Positions 10,320-25,450 of a stretch of 28,390 nucleotides of DNA are shown piece by piece. Position 1 is the first letter of the stretch, and each line of letters opens with the position of its first letter. Below the pieces are notes generated by a model. It searched no databases. It was not told the origin of the DNA and was given only the letters and a program-made list of their open reading frames with translations. This DNA is from a virus: positions 1-28,390 of the IMG/VR virus record IMGVR_UViG_3300021197_000767; one strand, given 5' to 3'. Both the position numbers and the translations under genes were made by a program.

Positions 10320-13300
10320 ATGGCAAGCCAACAAGACTTAACAAATGTGGCAATATCTTCAGGATATGCAACCCTTATTCATACAGAAGAATCAAGCGGG
10401 GTAAGTTCATCATTTACCACACTTTATGATGGTGATGGTACATTAATCCCAATGGCATTTGCCACTACAGGGGTCAAGATAATTGATGGTTCTTATGATT
10501 TTGATATAGCTTCACATGATGGCACAAATGGTTTGAAGCTTGGTGGTACTTTAGTCACAACAAGCGCAACAGAATTGAACTTATTAGATGGGATTACTGC
10601 AGGGACTGTTTCTGCTTCTAAATTCCTTTTGGTAGACAGTAATAAAGATTTAACTGGGATTAGAAACCTTACTGGAACTGGCACAGCACAATTTGCTAAT
10701 TTTACATCTACTGGAAATTCTAGTATTGGCGACAGTGTAGCAAATGACACAGTTGCTTTCAATGCAACAATCACAACAAATTTAGTTTTTGAAGGCTCCA
10801 CAGCAAATGACTATGAAACAACTTTAGCAATCACTGACCCAACCGCAGATAGAACATGGACCATTCCTGATTCTTCTGACACTTTTGTAGGTCTTGCCAC
10901 AACAGATACTTTAACAAATAAAACTTTAACAGCACCTGATATTAACACACCTGACATTGATGGTGGAACAGTGGATGCAATCACAAGCCTAACTGTAGCA
11001 AATAATGTTGACATTGGCTCTTATGATTTGAGAGCAGGAACGCTTACTGCAGATGGATTGACAAGTGGCAGGGTAGTATTTGCAGGCACAAATGGTGTTC
11101 TATCTGATGACAGTGATTTATCCTTTAGTGGTGCAACCTTATCTGCAACAAATATGACTTCATCAGGCACAGTCACTTATGGGTCACTATCTGATGGGTC
11201 CATAACTGTTACAGCTTTTGTTGATGAAGATGGCATGGATTCTAATTCAGCAACATTAGTGCCAACACAACAATCAGTCAAAGCTTATGTAGATGCACAA
11301 GTGACCGCACAAGATTTAGATTTTCAAGGTGATTCAGGTGGCGCATTAAATATTGATTTAGACAGTGAAACGCTAGACATTGCAGGTGGCACTGGAATTG
11401 ACACAGTAGGGTCAAGCAACACACTAACAGTTGCAATAGATTCTACAGTGGCAACTTTAGCAGGGTCACAAACTCTTTCAAATAAAACTTTAGCAAGTCC
11501 TGTAATAACCACACAATTTAACATTGGGTCCGCAACAATTACAGAAGCAGAGCTTGAAATATTAGATGGGGCAAATACTACAACCGCAGAACTAAATATC
11601 ATAGATGGTGACACTTCAGCAACTTCAACCACATTAGCTGATGCTGATAGAGTGGTAGTCAATGATAATGGCACAATGGTGCAGGTAGCCTTAACAGACT
11701 TTGAAACATATTTTGAAACAGCGCTAGATACACTTTCAAATGTAACAACAGTAGGCGCAGTTGATTCAGGTAGTCTTACATCAGGGTTTGGAAACATAAG
11801 TATTGGTTCAAGCACAATAACAAACACAGGTGCTGTGGATTTAGGCGCAACAACTGTAGACAGTCTAAGTGTCAGTGATGGAAACATTACTAATGTTGGT
11901 TCTATTGCTTTAGATAGTATAAGCGCAGATGATACTTCAATACAATTTAACAGCCCAATAGATTTTAACAGTCAAAACATGACTGAAGTGGATATTGATT
12001 CAGGGACCATAGATGGGGCAACTATTGCTACTTCTAATATAACAGTTGGAAGTGGTAAGACGTTAGACGTGAGCGCAGGAACCTTAACACTTGCAGACAA
12101 TCAAATTTCAGGTGACAAGGTTGAAGGCGGAACTATTGCAGGTACAACAATAACAGCACTTACAACCGCAGGCATTACAGCAAGCGGTAATTTAGATATT
12201 GGCTCACATGGCTTTAGAGCTTCAACGCTAACAGCAGACAGTCAGACTTCAGGCAGGGTTGCAATTTATGGCACTAATGGTTTGCTTACTGAAGATTCAG
12301 ATTTAACTTTTTCAGGCTCAACTTTATCTGCTACTAATGTTAATATAAGTGGCACATTGACCACCACAGGTAGTGTTCAGGAAGTTTCAACAACAAATTT
12401 AAATGTTGAAGACCCATTAATTCTTTTAAATAAATATGATTCACAGCCTAGCAATAATGCTTTTGATGCGGGTTTTGTTATTAAGCGTGGTTCAGGTGAC
12501 AGTGGACCTGCCAATGTTGCAATGATTTGGGATGAATCAGCAAACACATTTAGCCTGATTGATACTTCAGAAGATGGGACAACCGCAGGAAATGTCAGCA
12601 TAACAGATTATGAAAATTTAAGAGTTGGCGCACTTACTGCTGATGATGCTTCAACTTTCACAAGCACAATTTCTACAGCTACAGGTTCAACTATAGGAAA
12701 CTTAACATTTGCAAATGGTAGCATAACAGATTCAAGTGGTGCAATTAGCTTTGGTAATGAAAACTTATCAACAAGTGGAACATTGGGCGCAGGCGCAATT
12801 ACTGGAACCAGTTTTGTAATTGGTAGTGCTGATATTGGTGAAGCTGAATTAGAAATTTTAGATGGCGCAACAGTGACAACAGCAGAATTAAATATTATGG
12901 ATGGTGACACTAGCGCAACAAGCACAACAGTGGCAGATGCAGACAGGGTTGTGATGAATGATGGCGGGACCATGAAGCAAGTGGCTGTTACAGACCTGTC
13001 AGCATACTTTGATGACGAGATTACTGCAATGCCTAACCTAGCTTCAGTTGGAACATTAACTGCCCTTCAGGTGGATAATATCAACATCAATGGAAATACT
13101 ATTATTTCTTCAGATACCAATGGGCATATTAATCTTACACCAAATGGTAGTGGTGAAGTAAATATCTCTAAAGTAGATATTGACGCAGGAACAATAGATG
13201 GTGCAACAATAGCTACTTCCGATGTTACTGTTGGCTCAGGAAAAACTTTAGATGTATCAGGTGGTACATTGACTCTAGCAGATGACCAAATTCCAATGGC

Positions 13301-15095
13301 AAAGACTGCAATAGTAGCTGGAACTGGAATATCCCTTTCAACTAATACACTAAATGTGGATGCCTCGCAAACAGGACTTGAATCATTATTGAACGCAAGT
13401 TTGGTAGCTGGTAGAGATGCAGATAACCAAATAAAATTTAGTACAGACGACCAAATAATCTTTAGAGTTGCTGGTGGCGATGGTGTTACAATGAAAGCAA
13501 GTGGCGAGATTGAAGCAACTTCCTTAGACATTAGTGGTGCGGTTGCATCATCATCACTAACTACTACAGGAAATATAGGAGTTGGTTCAACTAGCACAAC
13601 AAGCCCATCTTCAGCATCTAGGACACTTAGAATACAACACGATACTGGTAGTGCAAGTCTTGTTTTATGTGGTGACAATAATAGTGAATCTGCTTGGGAT
13701 ATTCTTGCAAATGTAGATGGTGCTTTAGAAATAAGAAAAAATAATTACCCACAATTAAACATGGTAGGTGGAACGGGTGTGCGTATTGAGGCTGGTGGGT
13801 CTGGAGCAACAGCAGGTAGTCCAGGAGCAACCCTTCATACAGCACATAGCTCAAGTACAGCGTATAATGGAGGAGCTGAAATACTGGAATCTGCTATTAT
13901 ACAAAATACAAATGGTTCTGATGGTAGTGGTGTTAATAATGTTGCAAGTTTAGGATTGCAAGTTGCAAGTGGTGCTACATCTCAAGGATTTATAAATTAT
14001 GTAAGAACTGGTGATAATACTGGTGATTTTACATTTTCTCAAAGAACTGGTAGTTCAAGCTATGCAGAGCATATGCGTATTGCATCTGGTGGGAATGTTG
14101 GTATAGGAACTACAAGTCCAGCATATACACTTGACCTTGCTTCTTCAGACGCTATTGTTTCTCAATTTACAGGAAGTAGTGGAGAAACTATATTATCTTT
14201 AGACAATACTTCAACCAATGGTGATAAGTGGTACTTAATATCTGGTGGTAGTGGTGGAAGTTTTTCTGGTGGTAAATTTGGTATTTATAATGCTGATACT
14301 ACAACAGCAGTAGCAACTTTTACTAATTCTGGCAATGTAGGTATAGGAACTACAAGTCCTGCAGGTCTTTTAGAAGTAGAAAATTCAAGTGGGGATTGTA
14401 ATGTTTATATAACTGCTGAAAACGCAAGTAATTCAAGGTTATATTTTGGAGACCAAGCAGATGTAGGAGCAGGATTTGTAGATTATGACCATAATGGGAA
14501 TACTATGAAACTTGGAACTAACGGAACAACAAGACTAACTGTTGGTACTGATTTGTTTTACTTCAATGGAAATGTTGGTATAAACGAAACATCGCCTTTA
14601 AATAAGTTTTATGTTGTAGAAACAGAAAGTAAGGCTGTTGCGGCTTTTTATAATACAAGAAACCCTTCAAGCTCACCACCTCACGGTGTGGATATAAATT
14701 TTGCTTACACTCCTGATAACACAACATCTTATTTTGTAAGAGGTCAAGATAATCTCAGTACTGGTTCTCCTGTTGCTGAATTTCATATCTATTCAGATGG
14801 TTCTTTTGCGCAGTCATCTGATAGAAGAATGAAAGAAAATATTGTTGATTCAGCGAATACATTAGATAAGGTAAACAAATTAAAAGTTAAAGATTATAAT
14901 AAAATAAATGATTCATCTAAAAAGAAACATATTGGATTTATAGCTCAAGAACTACAAGAAGTATTCCCACATCTTGTTATTGAAGCCGAAGATGAAGCAA
15001 AAACTTTGCAAATTTACAAGATTGGTATTGTTCCATTACTTGTTAAAGCAGTACAAGAGCTATCAGCAAAAGTAGAAGCGTTAGAAAATGCGTAA
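10320..15095 (+). CDS. Giant tail fibre with C-terminal S74 intramolecular chaperone
   Basis: This 1591-residue protein is presumed to be the receptor-binding fibre. The N-terminal two thirds are repetitive beta-structure, with ATELNLLDG and two EAELEILDG/TTAELN blocks, plus a duplicated module (241-600 and 636-1000). From about 1258 onward there are GNVGIGTTSP repeats (about 1258 and 1338, with a degenerate copy near 1416). The C-terminus QSSDRRMKENI...HIGFIAQELQEVFP is the peptidase S74 (endosialidase chaperone) domain. It trimerises the fibre and then cleaves itself off at S1500-D1501, which are both present, leaving about 91 residues. The gene lies between head genes and the lysis cassette, rather than after the tail tip. 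Confidence 0.9.
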   Translation: MASQQDLTNVAISSGYATLIHTEESSGVSSSFTTLYDGDGTLIPMAFATTGVKIIDGSYDFDIASHDGTNGLKLGGTLVTTSATELNLLDGITAGTVSASKFLLVDSNKDLTGIRNLTGTGTAQFANFTSTGNSSIGDSVANDTVAFNATITTNLVFEGSTANDYETTLAITDPTADRTWTIPDSSDTFVGLATTDTLTNKTLTAPDINTPDIDGGTVDAITSLTVANNVDIGSYDLRAGTLTADGLTSGRVVFAGTNGVLSDDSDLSFSGATLSATNMTSSGTVTYGSLSDGSITVTAFVDEDGMDSNSATLVPTQQSVKAYVDAQVTAQDLDFQGDSGGALNIDLDSETLDIAGGTGIDTVGSSNTLTVAIDSTVATLAGSQTLSNKTLASPVITTQFNIGSATITEAELEILDGANTTTAELNIIDGDTSATSTTLADADRVVVNDNGTMVQVALTDFETYFETALDTLSNVTTVGAVDSGSLTSGFGNISIGSSTITNTGAVDLGATTVDSLSVSDGNITNVGSIALDSISADDTSIQFNSPIDFNSQNMTEVDIDSGTIDGATIATSNITVGSGKTLDVSAGTLTLADNQISGDKVEGGTIAGTTITALTTAGITASGNLDIGSHGFRASTLTADSQTSGRVAIYGTNGLLTEDSDLTFSGSTLSATNVNISGTLTTTGSVQEVSTTNLNVEDPLILLNKYDSQPSNNAFDAGFVIKRGSGDSGPANVAMIWDESANTFSLIDTSEDGTTAGNVSITDYENLRVGALTADDASTFTSTISTATGSTIGNLTFANGSITDSSGAISFGNENLSTSGTLGAGAITGTSFVIGSADIGEAELEILDGATVTTAELNIMDGDTSATSTTVADADRVVMNDGGTMKQVAVTDLSAYFDDEITAMPNLASVGTLTALQVDNININGNTIISSDTNGHINLTPNGSGEVNISKVDIDAGTIDGATIATSDVTVGSGKTLDVSGGTLTLADDQIPMAKTAIVAGTGISLSTNTLNVDASQTGLESLLNASLVAGRDADNQIKFSTDDQIIFRVAGGDGVTMKASGEIEATSLDISGAVASSSLTTTGNIGVGSTSTTSPSSASRTLRIQHDTGSASLVLCGDNNSESAWDILANVDGALEIRKNNYPQLNMVGGTGVRIEAGGSGATAGSPGATLHTAHSSSTAYNGGAEILESAIIQNTNGSDGSGVNNVASLGLQVASGATSQGFINYVRTGDNTGDFTFSQRTGSSSYAEHMRIASGGNVGIGTTSPAYTLDLASSDAIVSQFTGSSGETILSLDNTSTNGDKWYLISGGSGGSFSGGKFGIYNADTTTAVATFTNSGNVGIGTTSPAGLLEVENSSGDCNVYITAENASNSRLYFGDQADVGAGFVDYDHNGNTMKLGTNGTTRLTVGTDLFYFNGNVGINETSPLNKFYVVETESKAVAAFYNTRNPSSSPPHGVDINFAYTPDNTTSYFVRGQDNLSTGSPVAEFHIYSDGSFAQSSDRRMKENIVDSANTLDKVNKLKVKDYNKINDSSKKKHIGFIAQELQEVFPHLVIEAEDEAKTLQIYKIGIVPLLVKAVQELSAKVEALENA
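11040..13295 (+). repeat. Internal duplication in the fibre gene
   Basis: The segment from TLTAD (codon 241, base 11040) recurs from codon 636 (base 12225), an offset of 1185 bases. The same offset separates TIDGATIATS near 12005 from its copy near 13190. The EAELEILDG/TTAELN/DGDTSATSTT block inside differs in offset (about 1293), so insertions have occurred in one copy. DNA copies have diverged clearly, so the duplication is old. Confidence 0.65.
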
Positions 15096-17373: not shown

Positions 17374-17866
17374 AAAAATGTCAATACCACTTCAGCAAAT
17401 TGAAGGTTTGATTTCAGAAACTTTAAATGCTTTAGGGTCTAAATATGCAAACCCTATGGCTGTTGAATTAGTGTTGGCAACTGGGCTAGTTGAGAGTAGA
17501 TATAAATACTTGAAGCAGATTGGTTCAGAAATTGCTAGGTCTTACTGGCAGATTGAAGGTACTACAGCAAAAGATACTGTAGACAGCTATTTAGTTTACC
17601 GCAAAAAGTTAGCTAGTAGATGTGCTGAGGTGTCACAAACACCAGTGGACCTATGGCTAAAAGGGACTAAGGAAGAATGGGAAGAAATCTTAACATATAA
17701 CATGCGCTGTGCTATCATAGTCTGCAGATTAAAGTATTGGCGAGATAAGACCCCACTACCAAAGAATACGCAGGAAATGGCGCAAGTATGGAAGAAAGTC
17801 TACAACACTGAAGGTGGCGCAGGCACAGTTCCCCATTTTCTTGAAATTGTTGGGAAGCACATTTGA
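17363..17866 (+). CDS. Lysozyme-fold endolysin candidate (transglycosylase-like)
   Basis: The 167-residue protein has ELVLATGLVESRYKYLKQIG (35-54) with E44 in the position of the catalytic Glu of lysozyme-like muramidases and transglycosylases, followed by ARSYWQIE (58-65), the usual second motif, and a helical C-terminal half with YNMRCAIIVCRLKYW and YNTEGGAGT. No signal peptide or membrane segment is seen, so export would depend on a holin. It sits among small membrane proteins, as expected. The start is ATG 17363, with ATG 17378 as alternative. Confidence 0.65.
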   Translation: MTDKKMSIPLQQIEGLISETLNALGSKYANPMAVELVLATGLVESRYKYLKQIGSEIARSYWQIEGTTAKDTVDSYLVYRKKLASRCAEVSQTPVDLWLKGTKEEWEEILTYNMRCAIIVCRLKYWRDKTPLPKNTQEMAQVWKKVYNTEGGAGTVPHFLEIVGKHI

Positions 17867-18624
17867 ATATTAAAGACACAGTAGTAATTTTTCCTGATAT
17901 TCATTTCCCAATGGAAGACAAGAAAGCTTTAAATTGCGCTTTGAATGTTTTAGAATATGTAAAGCCCAGTGCCTTTCTCTGCATAGGGGATTTTGCTGAA
18001 GGCGCAAGCGTTTCCCACTGGCAGTGGAGTAAAAAGAAGCGCCCACCACTCGAATATCAGTTGCCTGCAATAAAAGAAGAAATCAAATTAGTCAATGAAG
18101 GTTTAGACAAAATTGATAAAGCTTGTAAAAATGCAGGTGTTAAAAAGAAAATTATGACAATGGGAAACCATGAACTTTGGTTTGATAATTTTGTTGAAGA
18201 AAATCCTTATTTGACACAGTATGGTGCTATGAAAGCTTTTAAGATTAAAGAAAGAGGCTATGATGCACACCCTTATGGAAAATATGTTAAAATATTAGGT
18301 TCAAAATTATATGCTTATCATGGTGGTCACTACATGGGAATAAATCACCCTAGAAGTCACGTTCAAAATTTAGGTGTTAATATTATTTATGGTCACACGC
18401 ATGATTCATTAAAATCAGTTGTGACACACTTAGATGGTCCAAAAATGGCATATTCTTTAGGATGCTTATGTAAGATGGAAAAAGAATTTTTAAAGAACAG
18501 GCAGACTAATTGGACACATAACGTAGGTGTGTTGGATATTTTTACTGATGGGAATTTTAATTTAAATGTTTTGACAATAATTAAAGGGCAGACTAGTTAC
18601 TGTGGGAAAGTCATTCATGGTTAG
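17863..18624 (+). CDS. Calcineurin-like metallophosphoesterase
   Basis: The 253-residue protein starts at TTG 17863, overlapping the TGA of the endolysin candidate (TTGA), with GGAAG upstream. It carries the complete metal-binding set: PDIH (D12, H14), IGD (D43), GNHE (N102, H103), YHGGH (H153) and GHTH (H178, H180). This family hydrolyses phosphoesters in nucleotides, nucleic acids or proteins, and the substrate cannot be read from sequence. A phosphoesterase between lysis and neck genes is not part of a standard siphovirus set. It has no signal peptide, so a cytoplasmic role is likely. Confidence 0.85.
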   Translation: MNIKDTVVIFPDIHFPMEDKKALNCALNVLEYVKPSAFLCIGDFAEGASVSHWQWSKKKRPPLEYQLPAIKEEIKLVNEGLDKIDKACKNAGVKKKIMTMGNHELWFDNFVEENPYLTQYGAMKAFKIKERGYDAHPYGKYVKILGSKLYAYHGGHYMGINHPRSHVQNLGVNIIYGHTHDSLKSVVTHLDGPKMAYSLGCLCKMEKEFLKNRQTNWTHNVGVLDIFTDGNFNLNVLTIIKGQTSYCGKVIHG

Positions 18625-19851: not shown

Positions 19852-20144
19852 TGGCGCATTTAGCCAAGAAAAAATCAATGCTTAAAAGGTTTGGATTGAA
19901 GGGTGTAAATAAACCCAAAAGAACACCAAGCCACAAGACTAAATCACACATGGTTTTAGCGCAAGTTGGTCATAAAATAAAACTTATTAGATTTGGACAG
20001 CAAGGTGTCAAGACAAATCAAACAGCCAAGCAAAGAAAGTCATTCAAAGCAAGGCATGCTAAAAATATAGCTAGGGGAAAAATGTCAGGCGCATTTTGGG
20101 CTAACAAGGTAAAGTGGAATCCTAGAAAGACTAGAGGGAAATAA
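19851..20144 (+). CDS. Small highly basic phage protein
   Basis: The 97-residue protein has about one quarter Lys or Arg. The segment KLIRFGQQGVKTN, then KQRKSFKARHAKNI, ARGKMSGAFWANKVKW near the C-terminus, is a recurring conserved pattern in small proteins of many phage structural operons, whose function is not established to my knowledge. It starts on the connector stop codon and ends on the next start codon (single-base overlaps), so it is fully coupled to the neck genes. Nucleic-acid or virion binding are possible. Confidence 0.65.
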   Translation: MAHLAKKKSMLKRFGLKGVNKPKRTPSHKTKSHMVLAQVGHKIKLIRFGQQGVKTNQTAKQRKSFKARHAKNIARGKMSGAFWANKVKWNPRKTRGK

Positions 20145-20605
20145 TGGCAACAGATTATTTTCAAACATATAAAGAAATTCAAGACAAGTTAGCTGATATT
20201 ATCAGAACAGAATTTAAAGGCTACGCTGTTTATTTTGATGAAAATTATATAAACAGAAAGCCTAGCTATTTTAACATAACAAAAATTAAAGATGAAGTAG
20301 TGCAAAATATGGTCCCAAAGGCACAACTAAGAAATTATGGATTTAGGGTTAAGTATTATTTACGCAGACCAAACTACAGCAAAGATTTAGTTTTAAATGC
20401 TTTGTTTAGAATAGGTGACAGGCTAAACCAATTAATTTACAATAATTCAAATGTTAAATATTTTTCTGATTCAAAAGATTATTATTTTACAGATGCTCAG
20501 TTTTTAAATTACACAGTTCAGCCTTCTAGGGATGAATCAGAAGACATTGATGAATTACACATAGCTAGTTTTGATTTTGATGTAACTGCTTTTGAGGTGG
20601 TTTAA
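20144..20605 (+). CDS. Neck or tail-completion protein 1
   Basis: The 153-residue protein has alternating strands and helices: an N-terminal helix (FQTYKEIQDKLADIIRTEF), a YFDENYINRKPSYFNI strand pair, GFRVKYYLRRP, and a C-terminal strand HIASFDFDVTAFEVV. This layout is that of tail terminator or head closure proteins (lambda gpU, HK97 gp10-like), and its position before tail tube agrees. The next gene repeats the same framework, suggesting duplication. Confidence 0.55.
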   Translation: MATDYFQTYKEIQDKLADIIRTEFKGYAVYFDENYINRKPSYFNITKIKDEVVQNMVPKAQLRNYGFRVKYYLRRPNYSKDLVLNALFRIGDRLNQLIYNNSNVKYFSDSKDYYFTDAQFLNYTVQPSRDESEDIDELHIASFDFDVTAFEVV

Positions 20606-21220
20606 ATGATTGCACATAGTGAAAGTTTTAAGGACCTTACTAAGGGCTTAGATGTTTTGTTAAGCGGTGAATTTAAAGTGCCTGTTTTTTTTGACAGGGG
20701 ATTTAAATACAGGAGAAGTCAATATTTTAATATTGAGCCTATAAGTTCTGATATTGTGGAGCTTAGGTCAGGAAGTCAGGTTAGGGAATTTTCAGCAACA
20801 ATAAAATTTTACTGGCACAGGGGTGGCAATAGATTTGGTGAGCGCTCAAACCATGTTAAGATTATGAACACGCTAAATAAAATTATGGAAAGGTCTAAGC
20901 AGTTACTGACAAATAATTCAAGTTACACTGTAGACAATACCCCTTCTTTTAGTGATATAAACTTAACTTTTAGTCAGGATAATACACAGTTTGTTTATCC
21001 TAAATTTGCATTAACAACAACATTTACACAGGACCCAACTTTTTTTGGTTCTGCAACAAGAAAAAGCAGAGATTATATTTTTTTTAGGGACACCTTATGG
21101 TATGATGGTAAGATAGAATCTGTGAACTATGACCCGCCTAGAAATGATACAGAACAAAGAGCAGATTTAATAATGACTTCAATGCTTTACAGCACAAAAA
21201 TTGAAGATGTAGCTAATTAA
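20606..21220 (+). CDS. Neck or tail-completion protein 2, relative of protein 1
   Basis: The 204-residue protein starts directly after the previous stop. It repeats the order VFFDRGFKYRRSQYFNIEPI, FSATIKFYWHRGG, a helix (HVKIMNTLNKIMERSKQLL), and strand-rich C-terminal segments. Y-F-N-I and R--Y/F--(V/I)K-(Y/F)Y motifs line up with the preceding gene, at about 50 residues greater length. One of the two is probably the tail terminator and the other a head closure or second neck ring. Confidence 0.5.
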   Translation: MIAHSESFKDLTKGLDVLLSGEFKVPVFFDRGFKYRRSQYFNIEPISSDIVELRSGSQVREFSATIKFYWHRGGNRFGERSNHVKIMNTLNKIMERSKQLLTNNSSYTVDNTPSFSDINLTFSQDNTQFVYPKFALTTTFTQDPTFFGSATRKSRDYIFFRDTLWYDGKIESVNYDPPRNDTEQRADLIMTSMLYSTKIEDVAN

Positions 21221-21421: not shown

Positions 21422-22429
21422 ATGGCATTAGATGGACAAGCTTTAAGCCCAAAAGAATTTCTTTTAGCTTTTAAGCCCGAAACTACTATTGGCACAGCCA
21501 ATGTTGCTACTATGAACCTGATTAATGTTGATTCTGTTTCTAGCCCTTCCATGAATCTAAGTCAAGTTTTAGACGTTAGAAATGGTGTAGGCAGAACCGC
21601 TAAAGTTGCGGATGCTTTCACTGAAGAAAAAGGGACTAGGAAAGAATTTTCATTTTCAGGGACTGCTGATGCAACCACACTTCCTATATTACTTCAAGCA
21701 ATCACAACTACTGCAGTAGGCTCAAGCCCTGCAAGTTATGATATTGCACACAACTACACACCACCTGAACTGCAAATAGGCACAGGGTCAATAAGTGACA
21801 GCTTGCACACATTTACTGTTGCAATCTCAAACCCTGAAGCAGGCAATGACCATTCTATGGTTTTTTCAGGATGTGTACTTACAACACTAAGCATAAATGG
21901 TTCAATGGGAACAGAATCAGGGCGCATAAAAGTATCAGGTACTTTTGCCACTGGTAATCTTGGAACCTATGGGCAAGCTAGACCAACTAGCACAGTTGCT
22001 TATAGCGCTACTAATTATAGCATGACACAATGGACCGCTAAAACTACAATAGCAGGCATTGGTGATTGTGTTATAAGTGATTTTTCATTAAACATTGAAA
22101 ACCCTTCAGAATTTATGGGCTTTAATGCAAGTGGAAATCCACAGGCTATAGTAAGGGCAGTCCCTGAAATTATGGTTTCAGTAGATGCTTCAATAAAAGC
22201 AGATGACAACACTTCAGCTTTGCACAATTCTCTTAAAGCAGGCGGTACAAGTGCAAGTGTTGAGGTGTCAAATCATGCAACATGGTCAAGTGCAACCACA
22301 TTTGGTATTAATATGGCTAATGGAGTATTAACTTCTGTGGATTTCAATGAGGCTTCAGCAATGTTCTACAATGTTTCTATTAAAGGACTTGCAAGCACAT
22401 CAGGTGATTTATTACAGATTATTGCATAA
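21422..22429 (+). CDS. Major tail tube protein
   Basis: The 335-residue protein lies directly ahead of the tail chaperone and tape measure, the usual place of the tail tube gene. It is rich in Ser, Thr, Ala and Gly with beta-strand character, opens LSPKEFLLAFKPETTIGTAN, and has VFSGCVLTTLSINGSMG and SDFSLNIENPSEFMGF, typical of the tube fold in siphoviruses. It is longer than the average tube protein, so an added surface domain in the middle (about 150-240) is possible. The frame is intact. Confidence 0.75.
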   Translation: MALDGQALSPKEFLLAFKPETTIGTANVATMNLINVDSVSSPSMNLSQVLDVRNGVGRTAKVADAFTEEKGTRKEFSFSGTADATTLPILLQAITTTAVGSSPASYDIAHNYTPPELQIGTGSISDSLHTFTVAISNPEAGNDHSMVFSGCVLTTLSINGSMGTESGRIKVSGTFATGNLGTYGQARPTSTVAYSATNYSMTQWTAKTTIAGIGDCVISDFSLNIENPSEFMGFNASGNPQAIVRAVPEIMVSVDASIKADDNTSALHNSLKAGGTSASVEVSNHATWSSATTFGINMANGVLTSVDFNEASAMFYNVSIKGLASTSGDLLQIIA

Positions 22430-22471
22430 AAGTGTTTAGACAGTTTCTAACAGAAAAGAAAGGTGAAACAA

Positions 22472-22759
22472 ATGCACACAGTGAAATGGAATAAAAAAGA
22501 CTGGGAAATATTAGATATTTCCTTTAGTGATAAAAGAAAATTACACATGCTAAATTCTATGTGTTTTATTGATAATAAGATTAACCAAGAAAACTACTAC
22601 AAATTACTAGAAGCAGTTAGGGATTTAGCAGGGTATGGAGATGGCACAGAAAAACAAAAACTTTTAGAAGAAATTACTATGGTTGAGGTTGATACATTAA
22701 TGCAAACTATTTTAATTGAATATTTAGGGCTTAATGTAAAAAAGACCAGTGGGAATTAG
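22472..22759 (+). CDS. Tail assembly chaperone, frame-0 product
   Basis: The ATG at 22472 has AGAAAGG about 8 bases upstream and gives a 95-residue protein, MHTVKWNKKDWEILDISFSD onward, ending NVKKTSGN. A small chaperone between tail tube and tape measure is the equivalent of lambda gpG. A GTG at 22463 in frame is a less likely start. Codons 90 and 91 are AAA AAG inside the slippery site at 22738-22744, so a part of translation is predicted to leave this frame. Confidence 0.75.
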   Translation: MHTVKWNKKDWEILDISFSDKRKLHMLNSMCFIDNKINQENYYKLLEAVRDLAGYGDGTEKQKLLEEITMVEVDTLMQTILIEYLGLNVKKTSGN

Positions 22760-23169
22760 CGCTTTATGTTTGGTGTTGCTTTTTTGGATGGCAGGATAGC
22801 TTATTCCCTGATGAAATTACTGCCATAAATTATCAAGCCACTTCACCTACGCTTTCTAAGCGTATTTGGTTTAAGGGTAAAAAGGACATAGATGCTGAGG
22901 TAGAAAGGATATTATTTGAAAACAAGAATAAATCTTATAGCGCAGGGCAGGCACTGTATTATAGTATGCCATTCTTTTGCAATGCTAAGATTTTTTCTAA
23001 ACAAATCTATCAAACTATGTTAGAAGAATATCAAATAATCCAAGATTACAAAGTACCGCTTGCACAATCAATAGATGATGTGCCAGTAATCAGAACAAGG
23101 TATTTTAATATTATAAGACAAGAATTATTAAACTGTCAAAGAAGACAAATGGAAATGCAAAATGGCTAA
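22472..23169 (+). CDS. Tail assembly chaperone frameshift fusion (gpG-T equivalent)
   Basis: After the heptamer A AAA AAG (22738-22744), a shift to the -1 frame rereads base 22744 and stays open to TAA at 23167-23169. The extension is 141 residues and starts DQWELALYVWCCFFGWQD. The fusion would be about 232 residues: 91 from frame 0 plus 141. The extension has no start codon of its own before 22966, is protein-like throughout, and overlaps the tape measure start by 8 bases, exactly as expected for gpG-T type proteins that recruit tape measure and tube subunits. Only a 67-residue tail of it (22966-23169) has an ATG. Confidence 0.8.
22738..22744 (+). promoter_or_regulatory. -1 programmed frameshift slippery site
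   Basis: A AAA AAG in the reading phase of the chaperone gene is the classic bacterial slippery heptamer, also used in dnaX. An SD-like AGGG at 22726-22729 lies 8 bases upstream, reminiscent of the stimulatory SD of dnaX. No clear downstream stem was found by eye, which is tolerated in this gene family. Confidence 0.8.
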
Positions 23170-25450
23170 AAAAATAAAATTAGTATTTGAAGTACAGGGC
23201 GCAGGTGGCGCAGAGCAAAAAACTAAAAAAGTAGACAATGCTTTAGGTGATTTAGCAAAAAAAGCGGGTGCGGTTACATTAGCATTTATAGGCGCAGGAA
23301 AATTAAAAGATGCCTTTGCTTCAACTGTTAGGGTTGGGTCTGAGTTTGAACAAAATATTAAAAATCTTTCAGTCATTGCAGGTGCTACTGGTGGAAAATT
23401 AAGACAGCTTGAACAGTCAGCACTTAAATTGGGTGGGTCCACTAAATTTACAGCTTCAGAAGTTGCTAACCTCCAAATAGAATTTTCAAAATTAGGCTTT
23501 ACATCAGATGAAATTTTAGAAGTAACTGAAGGCACCCTAAACCTATCTACAGCTTTCGGTTTAGACCTAGCACAGTCAGCCAGTGTTGCAGGTTCTACAT
23601 TAAGAGCCTTTGGCTTAGATGCTGAAGAAACAAATAGAATGACTGATGTCATGGCTACTAGTTTTGCTTCCACAGCCTTAGACATGGACAAATTCACTAA
23701 TTCTATGGCATTTGTAGCGCCAGTTGCTAAAGTGGCAGGATTTTCTTTGGAAGAAACCACCGCAGTGCTTGGAACGCTTGCCAATGCAGGTATTAGTGGC
23801 TCTATGGCAGGAACTGCGCTTAGGCAGGTGTTTTTAGAGCTTTCCAATGAAAATAGCAAATTAGCTAAAAGATTAGGTGGCACAGTAAGTAATTCAGCAG
23901 AATTGACTGAAGCACTTACAAAATTAAAAGAAGAAGGTATTGGGACTGCGGAAATGAAGCAGTTGGTGGGACAAAGAGCGGTTTCAGCTTTTAGTATTTT
24001 ATTAGATGGCGCAGGTACAGTTGCAGATTTAACAACCCAATTTAATGATGCTAATGGTGCAGGGCAAGCAATGGCAACTGAAATGCTTGACACTCTTGAA
24101 TCAAAGTTTAAGATTGTGAAAAGTGCAACAGAAGACTTAGGAATAGCCTTCTTTAAAACTTTTGATGAACAGTTAAAAAATGCAACTGATGTAATGATTG
24201 AAACTATAGGCAAAACTTCAGAATTTTTTAAACTGTTAGATGAAAGCCCAATGGAAACAGCTATCAGAAGAATTGATGCACTTGGTGGTAATACCTTAGA
24301 ACTTAGAACACAGCTTGCTGAAATGAATTTAGAGCAAGCAAAATTAGGCTCTGAAACACTACCCACTGTAAACGAAGCAATGCTTAAGCAGGCTGAAAAT
24401 AATGCAAAACTTATTGAGTTGGAAAAGGAATTAATACCATTAAGAGAGCAAGACAAAAAGACAACTGAAGCACTATCTTCAATGCAAGAAAATAGCTTCA
24501 CAACAACAGGTAAATTAAATGCAGTGATTACTAGAGTAATCGGTACGAGGCAATCAAATACCAAAGAACTGGAAGCAGAAAAAGAAGCGCTTTTAGCAGA
24601 TAATGAGGCACAGGCAGAAGCAATAAAAAAACAACAAGAGTTAAAACAGGCACAGACTGACTTGCTTGCTGTGCAAAAAGAAGCATTAGAAGTAAATAAG
24701 GAAAAGAAAGAGGGTGAAGAAGGTGAAGAACCAAAAAAGAAGGCTATAATTGAACAAGAATCTACGCAAGTTCAAATTCTTAGAGAAAAATTAGAATTAA
24801 TGAATCAAGATTTGGAAATTCATGAAATTCAAAAAGAGATGATAGAATTTCAAATAGAAAACGCAGAAAAATTTAATTTATCTCAAGAAAAAAGACTACA
24901 ACTACAAATTCAATTATTAGGGCTTAATAAAAAAGAAGTTGATGGAGAAAAGAAAAAATCAGATGCTATAAAAGCACAAAGAGAGCAAGACAGAAAAGAT
25001 GCAATATTACATTCAGATAATTTAGTTGAAGCCAGTGAAAGGCTACTATCAGCAAAAGCCACTGAAGTTGTTGCACATGCTATTTCAGGTGTATTTGCAA
25101 AATTCCCACCACCCATGAACGCAATTATGGCACCACTTGCAGGTGCTAGCGCTATGCGTATTGTAGGGGAAGGAATAAAAAAAGCTAAAGGAAATAAATT
25201 TAGACAAGGTGGATTTGTTGATGGATTTGGTGGCGGTGATAAGGTTCCCGCTATGTTAGAACAGGGTGAATTTGTAATGAATAAGGAATCTGTACAGGCA
25301 ATAGGAATTCAAAATTTACAAGAATTAAACGCAGGTAGAAATGGCGGTGGTATGAATCTTATATTTAATGCACCTGTAACAAATGAAGATTTTGTCAGGG
25401 ACTTTATTGCCCCAACTATAGAAGAAAACCTACAAAGGAATTTAAGCTAA
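23162..25450 (+). CDS. Tape measure protein
   Basis: The 762-residue protein sets tail length and is released during injection. The N-terminal 330 residues contain the phage tail tape measure domain: FEQNIKNLSVIAGAT, TASEVANLQIEFSKLGF, LAQSASVAGSTLRAFGL, TLANAGISGSMAGTALRQ. A long charged coiled coil spans about 380-600, and the C-terminus has FRQGGFVDGFGGGDKVPAMLEQGEF, a frequent ending of these proteins. At 762 residues a tail of roughly 110 nm would be expected from about 0.15 nm per residue. It overlaps the frameshift extension. Confidence 0.9.
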   Translation: MAKKIKLVFEVQGAGGAEQKTKKVDNALGDLAKKAGAVTLAFIGAGKLKDAFASTVRVGSEFEQNIKNLSVIAGATGGKLRQLEQSALKLGGSTKFTASEVANLQIEFSKLGFTSDEILEVTEGTLNLSTAFGLDLAQSASVAGSTLRAFGLDAEETNRMTDVMATSFASTALDMDKFTNSMAFVAPVAKVAGFSLEETTAVLGTLANAGISGSMAGTALRQVFLELSNENSKLAKRLGGTVSNSAELTEALTKLKEEGIGTAEMKQLVGQRAVSAFSILLDGAGTVADLTTQFNDANGAGQAMATEMLDTLESKFKIVKSATEDLGIAFFKTFDEQLKNATDVMIETIGKTSEFFKLLDESPMETAIRRIDALGGNTLELRTQLAEMNLEQAKLGSETLPTVNEAMLKQAENNAKLIELEKELIPLREQDKKTTEALSSMQENSFTTTGKLNAVITRVIGTRQSNTKELEAEKEALLADNEAQAEAIKKQQELKQAQTDLLAVQKEALEVNKEKKEGEEGEEPKKKAIIEQESTQVQILREKLELMNQDLEIHEIQKEMIEFQIENAEKFNLSQEKRLQLQIQLLGLNKKEVDGEKKKSDAIKAQREQDRKDAILHSDNLVEASERLLSAKATEVVAHAISGVFAKFPPPMNAIMAPLAGASAMRIVGEGIKKAKGNKFRQGGFVDGFGGGDKVPAMLEQGEFVMNKESVQAIGIQNLQELNAGRNGGGMNLIFNAPVTNEDFVRDFIAPTIEENLQRNLS

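Follow-up and report, generated by a model that had tools for sequence, protein, structure and literature searches.

A probable G-GT tail assembly chaperone cassette, made by programmed -1 ribosomal frameshifting, in an uncultivated long-tailed phage

Described systems and the layout of the locus

The slip site of phage lambda is G GGA AAG, and the G protein of this phage is about 140 aa long. The signal in the dnaX gene of E. coli is A AAA AAG with an SD lying about 10 nt upstream and a stable stem-loop a short way downstream, and the shift, at about 50%, yields a shorter product. In lambda, G outnumbers GT by about 30 to one on the tape measure protein, and the tube subunit is brought in by the T part (PMC5009743). 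Frameshifting of the G-GT kind is widespread in long-tailed phages, and A_AAA_AAG, the dnaX slip site, reportedly shifts far more readily in E. coli than several other heptamers do (PMC5009743). GGGGGAA is a slip motif observed in annotated actinophage chaperone genes (PMC10885494), and it has also been proposed as the slip site of a corynephage (PMC5506516).

The window, by which we mean the whole stretch of DNA analysed here, is a viral contig of 28,390 bases with 35% GC. It very probably holds a G-GT tail assembly chaperone cassette of an uncultivated long-tailed phage, made by programmed -1 ribosomal frameshifting (Table 1). We infer both the ribosomal nature of the slip and the chaperone function, the latter from the position of the genes and by analogy. 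The mechanism itself is textbook for long-tailed phages.

Table 1. Positions of the cassette, its candidate signals and the two flanking tail genes in the window
Feature	Position	Strand	Basis or remark
Tail tube protein gene, upstream, expected partner of T	21422..22429	+	PF18906, E 3.4e-12
G, putative short tail assembly chaperone, 95 aa, zero frame	22472..22759	+	ATG 22472, TAG 22757-22759; homologues in all relatives
SD-like AGGG, candidate stimulator	22726..22729	+	8 nt before the heptamer
TAA in the -1 frame just 5' of the heptamer	22732..22734	+	bars entry into the T frame from further upstream
Slippery heptamer A AAA AAG	22738..22744	+	in phase with G; conserved as A AAA AAR in relatives
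T, -1 frame extension, 141 codons and TAA	22744..23169	+	fusion to G; protein-level conservation
Candidate stem-loop, GGGAAU 22751-22756 with AUUCCC 22803-22808	22751..22808	+	starts 6 nt after the heptamer
Tape measure protein gene, downstream, expected partner of G	23162..25450	+	PF10145, E 3.5e-37; PHROG tape measure, E 5.5e-63

The original prediction had placed an A AAA AAG heptamer in the reading phase of the 95-residue gene, and this is right to the base (22738-22744): the codons GTA AAA AAG occupy 22736-22744, so that the phase of the heptamer matches that of G. The coordinates and numbers given for the -1 frame and the joined protein are right as well. The T frame runs for 141 codons from GAC 22744 (DQWELALYVW...) to the TAA at 23167-23169, and joining 22472-22744 to 22744-23169 gives a GT product of 232 aa, predicted to read ...NVKKDQWELALY... 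across the junction. Simple gene calling had been expected to return a small gene and a 67-residue ORF, and ordinary ORF calling does return nothing beyond the 95-aa ORF (98 aa if a GTG is taken as its start) and a 67-aa ORF at 22966. The ATG as start of G is supported by AAAGG at 22459-22463. The GTG at 22463, which would make G 98 aa long, was set aside, because AAAGG overlaps it and the codon matching 22472 is an ATG in the relatives.

The locus is like lambda gpG/gpGT in its order, tube-G-T-tape measure, with a short ORF between the tube and tape measure genes, and in having a -1 slip near the 3' end of the short ORF followed by a long C-terminal extension. It is unlike lambda in the slip site, A AAA AAG as compared to G GGA AAG, and in its shorter G of 95 aa, and sequence similarity to the lambda proteins is undetectable through curated families. 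The location of G and T between the tail tube and tape measure genes is the same in a second clade of relatives, and in the window the ATG of the tape measure gene overlaps the end of T by 8 bases.

In the proposed mechanism, most ribosomes would terminate at the end of the 95-aa ORF and produce the short chaperone G. Some would move back by one base on the A AAA AAG, with the two Lys tRNAs re-pairing with AAA AAA, and translate 141 further codons to give the 232-aa GT. If lambda is a guide, the tape measure protein may then be coated by many G and few GT, the T part would recruit tube subunits and so let the tube polymerise to its proper length, and both G and GT would depart afterwards. This reading assigns a probable role to an ORF and a frame that would be overlooked, or labelled hypothetical, in annotation.

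Conservation of the frame relation and turnover of the slip site

A search through the joined protein and the tube reached five close IMG/VR relatives (L005-L009) with the same layout. The heptamer is kept in 5/5 and is immediately followed by a 0-frame TAG (AAAAAAGTAG). In the -1 frame they encode KKVEWELA..., with 54-70% identity to the extension in the window. A codon comparison gave dN well below dS in both the G and T parts; for T, dN was 0.11-0.38 and dS about 0.9-2.3 where computable, which is near saturation, and the substitutions in T are concentrated at third positions of the -1 frame. Judged by these codon patterns, the extension evolves as a protein, with protein-level selection in both frames.

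A search of IMG/VR with a profile of the extension gave 61 contigs, one of which (L103) is cut before the junction and was left out. An in-phase A AAA AAR is present at the junction in 60/60 of the junction-covering contigs, as A AAA AAG in 50 and as A AAA AAA in 10. Together with the window these contigs form 25 clusters at 95% and 10 clusters at 70% extension identity. They were reached via motifs well inside the extension, a route that did not select for the heptamer but did select for an open extension. In many of them a -1 stop directly abuts the heptamer, and therefore the extension cannot begin upstream of the heptamer there.

The relatives were also approached through the tube gene, with a profile search that does not select for the extension. 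This gave 47 contigs, one of them unusable as it ends 179 bases after the tube gene (L149), and in 46/46 of the usable ones a small ORF precedes a long ORF in the -1 frame. The junctions carry A AAA AAR in 35, GGGGGAA in nine (L118, L120, L138-L140, L145, L146, L148 and L152) and G GGA AAA in two (L150 and L151), counted as contigs of which several are near-identical and hence not independent events. The T of the second group, which has the other slip sites, is homologous to the T of the window (hhalign probability 98%, E 4e-14), and a profile comparison of the G of this group with the G of the window detected no relationship. Since T is homologous even with another slip site, the frame relation and T appear to be more stable than the slippery sequence. 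The locus thus offers an alignment-backed example in which the position of the frame shift and T are kept while the slippery sequence turns over.

Compared to the actinophage and corynephage chaperones (PMC10885494, PMC5506516), nine of the deeper relatives are alike in their GGGGGAA slip site, which lies at the same junction and goes with a T homologous to that of the window, whereas in the clades of the window itself the slip site is A AAA AAR. It is conceivable, if somewhat less than probable, that these contigs represent an uncultivated phage family in which T and the -1 arrangement have stayed constant while the slippery sequence was exchanged (A AAA AAR, G GGA AAA and GGGGGAA) and G diverged or was swapped beyond recognition. 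If true, such a family would be a natural series on the re-tuning of slip site and chaperone ratio, and the heptamer-abutting stop and the downstream stem would be lineage-specific tuning.

Programmed frameshifting, its alternatives and candidate stimulators

The comparison strongly supports the claim of a programmed -1 frameshift, through the gene order, the in-phase slippery site and the conserved open -1 frame, to which can be added that T has no usable start and that the arrangement is conserved in every testable relative, whether extension- or tube-anchored. Relatives with neither a slippery site nor an open -1 frame, which had been named as counting against the claim, were looked for, and none was seen among the 60/60 and 46/46 contigs.

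The heptamer A AAA AAG alone means little, because AAAAAAG occurs 27 times on the + strand of the window, and a common A-rich heptamer could by chance lie beside an accidentally open frame. A scan of both strands of the window for an ORF of at least 60 codons with a canonical heptamer in phase, a 0-frame stop within 20 codons and at least 60 open -1 codons nevertheless found exactly one full cassette, the G-T locus. Out-of-frame runs in the remaining main genes of the window all fall short of 141 codons, the maximum being 118 in one frame and 71 in the other, and the shuffled segment stayed open in 0/20,000 shuffles. Chance is already refuted by the protein-level conservation across contigs, and its probability is negligible. 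Homopolymer runs are error-prone in metagenome assemblies, and the frame break could in principle come from one continuous gene with a single base lost or gained in the A run. Such a sequencing or assembly error is extremely improbable and is likewise already refuted, here by independent contigs: the same break is found in 60 others, it occurs at other sequences in the deeper relatives, and the closest relatives have a 0-frame TAG directly after the heptamer.

Two further explanations would leave T a real protein sequence. T could be a separate protein, not a fusion, started in or near G, either at ATG 22966, where the 67-aa ORF 22966-23169 does exist, or at a non-AUG codon coupled to the stop of G; some relatives have a TTG or CTG 18 nt after the start of the heptamer. 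The conservation begins at the heptamer, however, far 5' of 22966. In the 120 bases that follow the heptamer, the -1 frame of the window contains no ATG, GTG, TTG or CTG; all it has there is an ATT at 78 and an ATA at 87. Re-initiation is unlikely, since a -1 stop abuts the heptamer in many relatives and no start codon near the junction is conserved among them, and coupled initiation would not need an in-phase A AAA AAR, GGGGGAA or G GGA AAA. Taken together, a separate start is very unlikely. Slippage could also be transcriptional, with the RNA polymerase adding or dropping an A in the run and the altered mRNA being read normally. This needs only an A run, and the run is 7-9 A long in the second clade, but in the window and its close relatives it is only 6 A, which is short for polymerase slippage. 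The heptamer is moreover always in the X XXY YYZ phase, and the deeper relatives have GGGGGAA or G GGA AAA at the same junction, so that transcriptional slippage, too, is highly improbable.

Returning to slippage on the ribosome, the original prediction had likened the site to the dnaX signal, and this likeness holds in part. The heptamer is identical, and a GG-containing purine stretch lies upstream in the window, with AGGG 8 nt before the heptamer. The AGGG is, on the other hand, constrained by conserved Leu/Lys-Gly codons, the spacing from the GG to the heptamer varies between 8 and 11 nt among the relatives, with the GG lying within the conserved glycine codon, and the SD-like motif is a candidate stimulator. 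The site also differs from dnaX in that there is no convincing hairpin and in that the shift would give a longer product, where that of dnaX gives a shorter one.

The pairs of the candidate stem are kept in 6/6 of the closest sequences, with one fully covarying synonymous pair; the covariation score was reached by 60/500 shuffles. For the window there was no excess RNA stability downstream of the heptamer (z -0.19), the stem in the window was not favoured in a longer sequence context, and none was found in the second clade. The stem includes the Phe codon TTC, which is rare overall (14%) and common before Pro in the window (4/7), and its conservation is therefore poor evidence. In view of the lack of excess stability, the shuffles and the usage of TTC before Pro, a downstream RNA structure is not accepted as a stimulator here. 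The AGGG and the downstream stem are possible weak stimulators of the slip, and the stop codon that abuts the heptamer in the nearest relatives is another possible stimulator.

Family and structure searches, and neighbouring genes

Pfam scans of G, T and the joined protein gave no match, and PHROG scans of the same three gave weak scores and no convincing named match. One relative of T has a score of 0.037 against a PHROG that bears the name tail assembly chaperone; tail assembly chaperone families are strongly divergent. The search of the joined protein against families, envisaged in the original prediction, thus gave no convincing Pfam or named PHROG match. Similarity of the extension to lambda gpT was not found; what it resembles are the extensions of its own relatives. 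Among cultured phages, T had matches at chance level only and the tube protein none. A search of one genome per bacterial or archaeal species gave no relative of T, and hence no host was inferred. The proteins make up a divergent family without a convincing Pfam or named PHROG match, and in mechanism, location and logic they follow the lambda-type tail assembly chaperones, which are already known and conserved widely.

A sequence search of solved structures gave no matches. The predicted structure of G is a small alpha/beta protein with a pLDDT of 91.5. The best PDB match of this model (22472-22744) is 5ir0, which comes from a PICI-like element of Vibrio cholerae and is a protein of unknown function, with a Z of 7.2 over 88 residues; the next match has a Z of 4.2. 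Solved tail assembly chaperones are absent among the listed PDB matches of the G model, which excludes nothing. In comparison with viral models, the G model had two strong matches without a name and several weak ones to annotated tail assembly chaperones, which individually are not significant. The T model is poorly predicted (pLDDT 64), and its PDB matches are meaningless.

Some other genes of the window can be mentioned. Of two adjoining genes just before the tail tube gene, the one at 20144-20605 has a weak match to the tail terminator family PF20765, with an E of 8e-4 that is below the cut-off, and the one at 20606-21220 is without a clear family match. Between the capsid gene and the tail genes lies an ORF of 1591 aa (10320-15095), fibre- or spike-like, which ends in a Peptidase_S74 chaperone-of-endosialidase domain (E 6.4e-17). 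A gene for a calcineurin-like phosphoesterase (17863-18624; PF00149, E 2.2e-8) is found among the structural genes.
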